From Chloroflexota bacterium (GTDB lineage: Bacteria > Chloroflexota > Limnocylindria > Limnocylindrales > CSP1-4), in NCBI GenBank assembly GCA_027346765.1, contig DAIERN010000064.1:1-7609 (forward strand): DNA of 7,609 bases, written 5' to 3'. A program made the translations under genes and the position numbers. The notes beneath the pieces are model-generated. The model was not told the origin of the DNA. It was given only the letters and a program-made list of their open reading frames with translations, and ran no database searches. Position 1 is the first letter of the stretch. Each line of letters starts with the position of its first letter. Below are positions 1 to 4,884 of the stretch, one piece after another.

Positions 1-925
1 GGGTCGCCGCCGACCACATCGCCGGGCGCCCCGTCCGGCCCCGGCCCGCCATCGGGACGGCGATCGTCAAGGTCTTCGACCTCACGGTCGCCGTGACCGG
101 GTGGAGCGAGAAGCGCCTGCGGGCCGCCGGGCGGCCGGCCCAGCCGCGCTGGCTGCGCGCGTGAAGGTAGACCGCGTAGATGAGCCACGTGACGAGGGCG
201 CTCGTCTCCTTGGGGTCCCAGCCCCAGTAGCGGCCCCAGGCGATGCTCGCCCACCACGAGCCCAGGATGATCAGCGTCGCGAAGATCGGGAAGCCGATGA
301 TGACCGCGCGGTACGCGACCTCATCGAGCACCTTGGCCGGCGGCAGCCATGAGACGCGGTTCTCGCGGCCCTGGACGAGGTAGCCCACGGCCGCGCCAAA
401 GCTCACCGCGAAGATGCCGTACGAGATCATCGCCATCGCGACGTGGATGGTGAGCAGTGGCGGGTTGTCGAGCGCCGGGACGAGCGGCGAGATGTCCTGG
501 GGCAGCGTGAAGGCGTAGCCCAGCAGGAAGGCCGCGACACCGATCGGCAGGAACGCGATGGCGCGAATGGGGTAGCGCCGCGCGAGATACAGGTAGCCGC
601 CGATGATCCCGAAAGCAAACGCGACGCTGAACTCGTACAGGTTGCCCCACGGGCCACGCCCGACGAGATAGGCGCGCACCAGCAGGCCGATCGCGAGCAT
701 CACGAAGGATGCCCAGACGAAGACCTGGCCGATCGACCCGGCGGGCGTGGCTTGCGGACCGCTGCTGCCGATCGTCACCGATGAGCTGCCCACGGTGGCT
801 GTTGCGAGCGACTGGCGCCGGCCCGCGGCGAGCAGGGTCGTGTGGACGACCAGCAGGATGAAGCCGATGAACAGCGTCACCGTGCCCACATCGAAGGCGT
901 AGTACGAGAGCTTGGCGAGTGTCAT
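1..925 (-). CDS. ccsB: Cytochrome c biogenesis protein CcsB (CcsA/ResC family), C-terminus lost at junction near 122-136
   Basis: This is the haem-handling membrane subunit of System II cytochrome c maturation, which with ResB/Ccs1 delivers haem to apocytochromes outside the membrane. The start is ATG 925-923 (MTLAKLSYYAF), 12 bp after the preceding stop, with a poorly spaced GGGGG upstream. The predicted protein has a membrane helix at residues 12-33 and further helices after it. His161 lies in the PLLTIHVAMAMISYG segment. The haem-binding tryptophan signature WGRYWGWDPKE is at residues 230-240, followed by ALVTWLIYAVYLHAR with His255. Homology runs to GWAGRPAA, about residue 268 (position 122). 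Family members continue there with one more membrane helix and a short tail of about 30-40 residues. Here the frame stays open to the window edge, but the sequence is hydrophilic and unrelated because it is the reverse strand of the flavoprotein fragment. It is the last gene of a unit with the two upstream minus-strand genes. No resB is visible. Confidence 0.85.
   Translation of the reverse strand, partial: MTLAKLSYYAFDVGTVTLFIGFILLVVHTTLLAAGRRQSLATATVGSSSVTIGSSGPQATPAGSIGQVFVWASFVMLAIGLLVRAYLVGRGPWGNLYEFSVAFAFGIIGGYLYLARRYPIRAIAFLPIGVAAFLLGYAFTLPQDISPLVPALDNPPLLTIHVAMAMISYGIFAVSFGAAVGYLVQGRENRVSWLPPAKVLDEVAYRAVIIGFPIFATLIILGSWWASIAWGRYWGWDPKETSALVTWLIYAVYLHARSQRGWAGRPAARRRFSLHPVTATVRSKTLTIAVPMAGRGRTGRPAMWSAAT
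3..164 (+). CDS. CoA-disulfide reductase / NADH oxidase-like flavoprotein, internal fragment, 3' end lost
   Basis: The open plus-strand frame enters from the left edge and stops at TGA 162-164. Its first 43 or so residues resemble the start of the C-terminal dimerisation region of class I pyridine nucleotide-disulfide oxidoreductases of the CoA-disulfide reductase/NADH oxidase group. The recognisable elements are DHIAGRP, the block GTAIVKVFDLTVAVTG, and SEKRLRAAG (ending about position 131). In the family, about 100 more residues follow this point and complete the dimer interface. Here the reading becomes low-complexity Arg/Pro/Ala/Trp and stops after ten residues. The gene is thus cut on the right by the ccsB junction and on the left by the window edge. 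Such enzymes use FAD and NAD(P)H to reduce CoA disulfides, sulfur species or oxygen; which substrate applies cannot be told from this piece. Family recognition is from memory of motifs, without a search. Confidence 0.62.
   Translation, partial: VAADHIAGRPVRPRPAIGTAIVKVFDLTVAVTGWSEKRLRAAGRPAQPRWLRA
122..136. repeat. Perfect 7-bp inverted repeat at the breakpoint between two truncated genes
   Basis: Arms GGCCGCC (122-128) and GGCGGCC (130-136) flank a single G. The flavoprotein residues LRAAG (117-131) and the CcsB residues GRPAA (136-122) both read through this palindrome on opposite strands, so it is the shared microhomology where the two genes meet. Confidence 0.8.
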
Positions 926-937
926 TTCCCCCGGGTC

Positions 938-1423
938 CTATGCGACCGCGGCGCCACCGGCGGGGGGAGCGCCGCCACGGCGTACGACGACAGGCGCCAG
1001 CGACGCGCCCAGCTGGTAGCGAGTTCCGCAGGTGCGGCACAGCTGCTGGCCGGCGGGTCGGACGGTGTCATCGACCGGGCAGCGCACGAGCAGGTCGCCG
1101 CGATCGATGTCGCACTCATGGGCAGTGGGCGGATAGAGCAGGTGATGCGTCGCGCAGTAGGGCACGTTGGCGGGATAGGTGTACGAGCCGTCGGCATTGG
1201 CCGCGACGGCAATCGGCTGGGGATCGTCGAGCCGCACCTTGCCGCGCTTCTCGTTGAGCCGGTTGTAGATCCAGTACAGCAGCAGCAGGCTCAGGCCCGG
1301 ACCCACGACGCCCAGGATGAGCAGGATGGGCAGCAGGCCGATCAGCCCGTTCCAGTCCGGAATCAGGATGGTCGAGAGCCATTGCAGGAACCCAGTCCAG
1401 GGATCGACGGGGGTGGGTGGCAT
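938..1423 (-). CDS. Small membrane-anchored cysteine-rich (zinc-ribbon-like) protein upstream of ccsB
   Basis: I do not recognise a named family. ATG 1423-1421 gives 161 residues. A longer in-frame start at 1537 would add 38 Arg/Pro-rich residues overlapping the nuclease gene and is unlikely. After MPPTPVDPWTG there is a hydrophobic region with a membrane segment at about residues 27-51 (LPILLILGVVGPGLSLLLLY), possibly preceded by a short amphipathic helix, then a basic stretch NRLNEKRGKV. The soluble part carries Cys90, His93, His94, Cys104, Cys115, and Cys129/Cys132 in a CRTCG knuckle, a spacing that could bind one or two zinc ions or form a redox or haem-handling site. The tail is Ala/Gly/Pro-rich. 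It lies 11 bp after the nuclease stop and 12 bp before ccsB, so co-transcription is expected. A role beside CcsB in cytochrome c maturation is inference from position only. Confidence 0.75.
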   Translation of the reverse strand: MPPTPVDPWTGFLQWLSTILIPDWNGLIGLLPILLILGVVGPGLSLLLLYWIYNRLNEKRGKVRLDDPQPIAVAANADGSYTYPANVPYCATHHLLYPPTAHECDIDRGDLLVRCPVDDTVRPAGQQLCRTCGTRYQLGASLAPVVVRRGGAPPAGGAAVA

Positions 1424-1914: not shown

Positions 1915-2727
1915 GTGTTGCTGCTGGTTGATCTCGATGGCGTCGTGTACCGCGGCGCGGAGGCTGTCCCGGGAGTCGCCGGCGTGCTCACCCGGCGCGC
2001 CGCGAACGGCGACAAAGTGATGTACGTGACCAACAACTCGCGCTGGCATCGCTCGGACTATCGAACGCGGCTCGAGGGTCATGGTGTGCCACTGGGGGAG
2101 GGCTGGGACAGCATCGTGACCGCCGCGCGCGCGGCGGCGGTGCTGCTTGCTGAGCGCGACCCCAAGCCGCGCGTGGCGATGGTCTTTGGCGGCCCGGGCC
2201 TTGGACGCGAGCTGCGCGACGTGGGCATCCGCACCGTGCGGCCCACGCCCCTTGGGCTGGCTGCGGCGCCGGACGTGCTCGCGGTTGGCGTGGATTTCAG
2301 CCTCACGTACGCGCGGCTGACGACGGCGGTTGAGGCGGTCCGCCGCGGGGCGTTGTTCGTCGCCACGAACCGCGACCCAATCTATCCCGGCGCCGACGGG
2401 CAGCTGATGGCCGGCGCGGGCGCGATGGTCGCCGCGGTGGCGGCGGCGGCGATGACGGAACCCGACCTGGTGGTCGGTAAGCCCGAGCCGCGGCTCTTCG
2501 AGGCTGCCGCCGACGTGGCCGGCATGGCGCTGAAGGACGCGATCGTCATCGGCGACGGCCTCACGACGGACATCCGCGCCGCGAACCGGGTGGGGGCGCG
2601 GTCGATCCTGATGCTGACCGGGGTGACGACACAGGCCGACCTGGCGCGCTTTCCCGATATCAAACCGACCCGGATCGCCCACGACGCCAAGGAGCTGGAG
2701 AAAGCCTTGGCTGACCTCTCAGCCTAG
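1915..2727 (+). CDS. HAD-superfamily (HAD-IIA, NagD-type) phosphatase
   Basis: A 270-residue member of the NagD/p-nitrophenyl phosphatase group of HAD hydrolases, which cleave small phosphate esters such as nucleotides, sugar phosphates or 2-phosphoglycolate using Mg2+. Motif I is VDLDGVVYRG with the nucleophile Asp6 and acid/base Asp8. Motif II is VTNNS with Thr39. The C2-type cap lies roughly between residues 75 and 180. Motif III is VGKPEP with Lys189. Motif IV is IGDGLTTDI with Asp214 and Asp219. The C-terminal VGARSILMLTGVTT is typical of the family. All catalytic residues are present and the length is normal. The start is GTG 1915, immediately before the first strand; TTG 1918 is an alternative, and no start lies further upstream near the gene. 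The stop TAG (2725-2727) overlaps the stop of adenosine deaminase on the other strand. The substrate cannot be assigned. A role in nucleotide turnover beside the deaminase is possible, but the genes are convergent, so context is weak. Confidence 0.9.
   Translation: MLLLVDLDGVVYRGAEAVPGVAGVLTRRAANGDKVMYVTNNSRWHRSDYRTRLEGHGVPLGEGWDSIVTAARAAAVLLAERDPKPRVAMVFGGPGLGRELRDVGIRTVRPTPLGLAAAPDVLAVGVDFSLTYARLTTAVEAVRRGALFVATNRDPIYPGADGQLMAGAGAMVAAVAAAAMTEPDLVVGKPEPRLFEAAADVAGMALKDAIVIGDGLTTDIRAANRVGARSILMLTGVTTQADLARFPDIKPTRIAHDAKELEKALADLSA
2724..2727. other. Shared CTAG stop palindrome of two convergent genes
   Basis: The phosphatase gene ends with TAG 2725-2727 and the deaminase gene with TAG 2726-2724 on the other strand, so one CTAG supplies both stops. 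There is no intergenic space for a conventional terminator, so both transcripts must run into the opposite gene. Confidence 0.9.
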
Positions 2728-3852: not shown

Positions 3853-4884
3853 ATGGCCGCCCCATTGTCCGTGTCCGCCAGCGACGGGCCGCCGCGCACG
3901 CTGCGGCTGCACCTGTGGTGGACGACGGTCCTCGTGCTCGCCGCGCTGGGCGGTGCCGGCCTCGCCGTGGCGGCCGACCGGCCGGGTAACCCGGTCCAGC
4001 GGCCCGAGCTGACCTATCGCGCCGACACTGCCGCGCAACCCTGGATCGACCACATGGCGGTCGACCTCGACGCGGCCACCAGCGACGCCACCGACCTGGC
4101 CGCCGACGGCCGGAACGTCCTGGACAGCCTGCAGGCCCTCGATCGCGCAGCCGCGGACCAGGCGCTCGCGGCCGGCGACCAGACGGCGGCCCATCTCAGC
4201 AACCTGGTCGCCAGCCTGCGCGACACCGAATCGCGCGCCCACACAGAGATCGAGCGCTGGCGACTGGGGCCGCAGGCGGTCAGCCTGTTCGACCAGATCG
4301 ACAAGGCCATCGCGGCCGCCCAGGACGTCGCTGCCGACTGGCAGGGGCTGGCAGCGGTGGGCCGCACGGTCGTGGCGCTGCTCGAGGGTTTCAACGATCA
4401 CGACCAGGCGGTCATCGGAGCGACCAGCGCCGGCCGCGCCAGCAACTGGAACGATGCCCTCGGCCTGCTCAATGGAGCCGCGGCTGATGGGCTAACTGTC
4501 GTCAGCGCGGCGCGCGACCAGCTCGCGCAGTCCGGGACGGTGGACACGCTCGATGACCTGCTCGGGCGGGAGCGGGCATACGACGCGGCTCTGGTCGCGC
4601 TGTACCAGTACCTCGCGAACGGCGGCGCGCAATCAGGCCCCAAGTTCCAGCACCTCAAGGATGCGGTCGACCAGGCGCAGGCCGCGCTCCCCGCGGACAA
4701 CAACGCGCTCGTGGTCATCGTCGGCGAATCGTCGGGTGTGCCCATCGCCGACGAGCTGCTCGCGATGGACACGGCACACGGCGTGATCAACGACGCGCTC
4801 GAGGCCATCACCGATGCCAAGACGGGCGGCCAGGGCACCGACCAGACGCCGCTCGAGACGCAGGCGCCGACGGCCGCGCCATGA
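3853..4884 (+). CDS. Unrecognised secreted or membrane-anchored helical protein, coupled to prepilin peptidase
   Basis: A 343-residue protein of no family I recognise. The N-terminus is a short polar stretch with Arg15, Arg18 and His20, then one hydrophobic segment at about residues 21-41 (LWWTTVLVLAALGGAGLAVA). It could be a membrane anchor or an uncleaved signal; an AVA-AD site could also be cleaved, but no lipobox Cys follows. The rest, about 300 residues, is acidic, Ala/Asp/Gln/Leu-rich and predicted mostly helical, suggesting helical bundles outside the membrane. It has no cysteine and no obvious catalytic motif. A short hydrophobic strand LVVIVGE is at about 286-292. The last 20 residues are Thr/Pro/Gln/Ala-rich and probably disordered. 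The start is ATG 3853, 7 nt after a TAGACT box. Its TGA overlaps the ATG of the A24 peptidase (ATGA, 4881-4884), so the pair is translationally coupled. No type III pilin-like processing motif (G-F/E) is seen. Confidence 0.8.
   Translation: MAAPLSVSASDGPPRTLRLHLWWTTVLVLAALGGAGLAVAADRPGNPVQRPELTYRADTAAQPWIDHMAVDLDAATSDATDLAADGRNVLDSLQALDRAAADQALAAGDQTAAHLSNLVASLRDTESRAHTEIERWRLGPQAVSLFDQIDKAIAAAQDVAADWQGLAAVGRTVVALLEGFNDHDQAVIGATSAGRASNWNDALGLLNGAAADGLTVVSAARDQLAQSGTVDTLDDLLGRERAYDAALVALYQYLANGGAQSGPKFQHLKDAVDQAQAALPADNNALVVIVGESSGVPIADELLAMDTAHGVINDALEAITDAKTGGQGTDQTPLETQAPTAAP

Follow-up and report, generated by a model that had tools for sequence, protein, structure and literature searches.

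Graphs joined by common k-mers can yield contigs that mix genomes, as set out in the parts of a 2019 review of metagenome assembly that bear on this subject (PMC7299287). The 7,609-nt window analysed here resembles the chimeric contigs of short-read metagenomes described there, in that sequence from two genomes appears to be joined at a short common stretch, but it differs in the distance between the sources, which look far apart here, whereas those parts of the review attribute mixing to closely related species or to sequencing errors (PMC7299287).

In the window, the sequence breaks at approximately positions 122-143, some 130 bp in from the end, where a ccsB gene on one side meets a flavoprotein gene on the other. 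The two parent genes lie on opposite strands and are both cut mid-domain at the join, and the junction is unbroken in the given sequence. Alignments of homologues on both strands bore out the coordinates and content of the original prediction, which had placed here two unrelated convergent genes truncated at one point, with the correction that the two similarities overlap at approximately 123-137 or 143. We are highly confident that the window represents the end of a Chloroflexota contig, the first ~122-143 bases of which derive from the flavoprotein gene of another organism through a chimeric join introduced in assembly or library.

The ccsB gene occupies positions 122-925 on the minus strand, with an ATG at 925, and encodes residues 1-268 of approximately 298. 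Over these residues the product is an ordinary member of the CcsB family (TIGR03144, PF01578; cytochrome c biogenesis), and its conserved core is present and matched by close homologues, but the ~30 terminal residues are gone at the join. The alignment with homologues holds through residue 268 (codon 122-124) and then departs, and the CcsB frame of the window presents no stop at the break, remaining open through to the window start. In a search of a protein collection, 7999 candidates were scored and 5633 homologues were recovered at E ≤ 0.001; the best 120 of these all end their alignment at residue 268 and continue for 29-31 more residues, in agreement with the earlier claim that this CcsB end is abnormal. 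Among 11 aligned homologues the tail ends in HSYSGL, with HSYAGT in one. An intact CcsB encoded by a 994-bp ENA contig (P0002) shows a single difference from the window in 268 residues and scores 211.6 bits against TIGR03144 (profile positions 2-252), above the cut-off of 187.6, whereas the window CcsB scores 173.5 bits (positions 2-224 of 252) and falls under it.

The comparison of ccsB loci, some of which represent the same place twice (e.g. L002/L123 and L001/L130), revealed a tail of 27-48 residues in 124 of 128. An LHSY-like pattern is absent from 46 of the 128, and 42 of these 46 have an in-range tail with a variant (LHTYSG, KHTYSG or KHSYAG). The four loci outside the range comprise one with N at this point (L122), one in which the contig ends (L143), one with the tail in another frame (L023) and one in which the tail is absent (L005). 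Natural ends at the position of the break, which the original prediction had held to be incompatible with a truncation, were hence seen in none of the 120 best CcsB homologues and in one of the 128 loci. In that locus (L005:6760-6860), on a 51-kb contig of a Candidatus Aquidulcis MAG (Chloroflexota), CcsB breaks at the same residue as in the window, stopping after GRPA (GRPARLTM and a stop), and unrelated sequence follows, with a long frame that presumably encodes a B12-dependent ribonucleotide reductase. A search for the tail in the 12.8 kb of L005 examined did not find it; either a real deletion or a misjoin at this same GC-rich site could explain the break.

On the plus strand, an ORF spanning bases 3-164 (P0001; 53 residues) is open at the left end and has its stop at 162-164. 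Its residues 1-47 (3-143) constitute a CoA-disulfide-reductase-like FAD oxidoreductase fragment, foreign to the remaining window. This fragment is matched by TIGR03385 (E 1.7e-5, profile positions 308-347) and by the solved CoA-persulfide reductase PDB 8a56 (E 3e-6, residues 330-371), and five full-length proteins of 545-547 aa (P0122-P0126) present 93.6-95.7% identity to it over residues 1-47. The window contains 47 residues, at 94-96%, of a TIGR03385-like oxidoreductase with a C-terminal rhodanese domain, as a fragment and not as a whole protein. The FAD/NAD domain, the whole dimerisation domain and the rhodanese domain are not complete in the window ORF, and the family match is lost after residue 47. 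Full-length P0122, whose rhodanese domain covers 450-535 of its 545 residues, itself lies below the TIGR03385 cut-off (440.2 vs 578.8 bits). The best nine flavoprotein relatives, at 93.6-95.7% over residues 1-47, continue with AIHTHPSSHAGYYPGA, and the window reads instead PRWLRA and a stop. Among the 120 best of 2807 flavoprotein relatives, the sequence continues past the aligned part by a median of 200 residues (fewer than 60 in two, at least 60 in 118). The family originally proposed for the fragment was thus recovered, but the accompanying estimate of ~100 missing residues falls short for this subfamily, given that median of 200 and the rhodanese domain of P0122, and should be approximately 200.

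At its end (residues 38-53), the plus-strand ORF corresponds to ccsB read backwards, which corrects the earlier reading, and positions 144-164 (plus strand) are accordingly the antisense of ccsB and not flavoprotein coding, as indicated by their match to the strand opposite ccsB in relatives. In genomes of the class of L002, presumably Limnocylindria, this part of the ORF (residues 36/38-53) is matched antisense to ccsB; 19 of 28 match rows cover only residues 36/37/38-53, and all 19, as judged from coordinates compared by eye, are antisense at the ccsB match. Used alone as a protein query, the 53-residue ORF returned no homologue from what were probably only candidates of similar length.

At the DNA level the similarity changes sharply, being flavoprotein-like up to position ~137, perhaps 143, and ccsB-like from ~123. 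Compared in register with the window, five flavoprotein genes present identities of 0.62-0.70 over 9-107 and of 0.32-0.37 over 138-200, and the ccsB loci (n=107, including some places represented twice) present mean identities of 0.25 over 60-107 and 0.73 over 138-200. Across a larger group of 42 flavoprotein loci, identity averages 0.67 over 3-122 and 0.29 over 144-200. The GC content is 0.762 in 1-122 vs 0.675 in the ccsB portion (144-925), a contrast that constitutes weak evidence because the left piece is short. A frameshift in ccsB was considered and ruled out, since past the join the DNA resembles a flavoprotein gene on the opposite strand and is unlike the ccsB of 107 relatives (the mean of 0.25 over 60-107). 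A consensus scan of bases 1-1000 did not find promoter-like or terminator-like sites.

The overlap of the two similarities defines a stretch common to both parents, located at 123-137 (GCCGCCGGGCGGCCG). Exact, in-register copies of this 15-mer are present in L092, a flavoprotein gene, and in L004, a ccsB gene, and are thus documented for relatives of the two parents, not for the parents themselves. The 21-mer at 123-143 is present, among the loci compared, in L004 (ccsB) only and in no flavoprotein locus. P0122, P0123, P0124 and P0126, four of the five best flavoprotein matches, nevertheless read AAGRPAQ, as does the window, and their DNA may therefore carry all 21 bp. On this protein and codon reasoning, the stretch common to the parents would comprise at least 15 bp (123-137) and could reach 21 bp (to 143). 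Among short-read assemblers, 21 is a common smallest k-mer.

The two sides of the join point to different taxonomic sources. On the right, the order ccsB, small protein, PIN/NYN-like protein (a designation we assume, no Pfam match having been found for it), HAD hydrolase and adenosine deaminase is repeated in L001 and L002, two MAGs with Chloroflexi titles, and parts of it also occur in other loci. Four of the best 120 CcsB homologues listed carry an organism name, and these are all Chloroflexota, one of them Limnocylindrales. On the left, ten of the best 120 flavoprotein relatives listed are named, encompassing nine Actinomycetota (to which we assign Propioniciclava and Aestuariimicrobium), one Acidobacteria and no Chloroflexota. 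Three of the nine Actinomycetota are Acidimicrobiales, two of them among the nearest nine relatives, and the nearest organism-named relatives thus belong to a phylum other than Chloroflexota. The fragment hence probably comes from another bacterial phylum than the ccsB side, with the donor phylum being a best guess because only 10 of the 120 relatives listed carry an organism name. Searches with P0122 in overlapping sets of 394, 197, 396 and 345 genomes (Actinomycetota-MAG classes or phylum), with 3 to 7 candidates scored per genome, listed no match above 69% identity and thus did not recover the source gene.

The two genes were not found together in any of the loci compared: matches to P0122 (E ≤ 1e-20) were detected in 47 loci and ccsB in 128, with none containing both, in a comparison where 125 of the 128 ccsB loci span at least 400 bases beyond ccsB and many extend only ~1.5 kb to each side. 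Of 177 genomes of the class of L002, five carry a clear relative (64-73% identity) of the fragment, and in those five it lies on a different contig from every listed ccsB match.

The original prediction had left a chimera and a rearrangement as alternatives. The evidence favours the former, because the window apparently combines two taxonomic sources across a common stretch of at least 15 bp close to the window end (~130 bp), and because the databases contain an intact, near-identical CcsB and the two genes do not occur together in any of the loci compared. The join is therefore most likely an assembly or library artefact, and not a biological rearrangement that destroyed two genes. In such an artefact, ccsB and the unrelated CoA-disulfide-reductase-like gene, on opposite strands, would have in common a 15- to 21-bp GC-rich stretch, through which an assembler (by overlap collision) or a chimeric read would cross from ccsB into the flavoprotein gene, and the chimeric extension would halt within about one short-read length. 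Such a join would presumably have been formed in the library or in silico. A genuine rearrangement or transfer, with the flavoprotein gene joined to ccsB via 15-21 bp of microhomology and both 3' ends lost, is consistent with the continuous junction and with the second CcsB broken at the same residue in L005, and microhomology could equally serve real illegitimate recombination. It is nonetheless unlikely, as it requires a donor probably from another phylum, a conserved cytochrome c maturation protein deprived of its C-terminus, and a break that by chance falls ~130 bp from the edge of the window, and it sits poorly with the intact P0002 and with the lack of both genes together in any locus compared.

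We give very little credence to the GRPA end of CcsB being a real recombination-prone spot in Chloroflexota, with the window and L005 as two independent natural truncations. It is equally hard to credit that CcsB is naturally short in this lineage and that the plus strand encodes a real short gene. Such an interpretation could invoke the GRPARLTM end of L005 and the ORF running from the window start to the stop at 162-164, but the tail is present in all 120 best homologues listed, including one with a single difference in 268 residues, the window frame reads on to the window start without a stop at the break, and the plus-strand ORF terminates in antisense ccsB.

With a chimeric join as the favoured explanation, annotation should not assign bases 1 to ~143 to the source organism, label this ccsB a pseudogene or present the flavoprotein fragment as a transferred gene. 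Were the join genuine, it would represent a two-phylum gene fusion in which a cytochrome c maturation protein loses its end.

Several further features were observed in the window and in the loci compared. At the join there is an imperfect inverted repeat (119-139), with arms of 10 nt each (119-128 and 130-139), a 1-nt spacer and 90% complementarity, which might favour the formation of an inverted chimeric read. The tail of ccsB in a Pseudopropionibacterium record (L023:6500-6660) is in a different reading frame, an apparent frameshift. Two locus titles look doubtful: L006, titled Thermoflexus hugenholtzii, has a CcsB tail like those of the class of L002, and L026, titled Bifidobacterium breve, has one like those of MAGs titled Nanopelagicales or other Actinomycetota. 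Beyond ccsB, the small protein that neighbours it in relatives is encoded at 938-1417 (minus strand); it has no Pfam or NCBIfam match, and we take it to be zinc-ribbon-like. The HAD-IIA family hydrolase at 1915-2727 (plus strand) scores 113.6 bits against TIGR01460 (cut-off 100.15) and keeps the same order in L001 and L002. Positions 3853-4881 encode a 343-residue protein with no Pfam or NCBIfam match and, by eye, a hydrophobic stretch near its N-terminus, a weak relative of which (27% identity) adjoins the same genes in L001.
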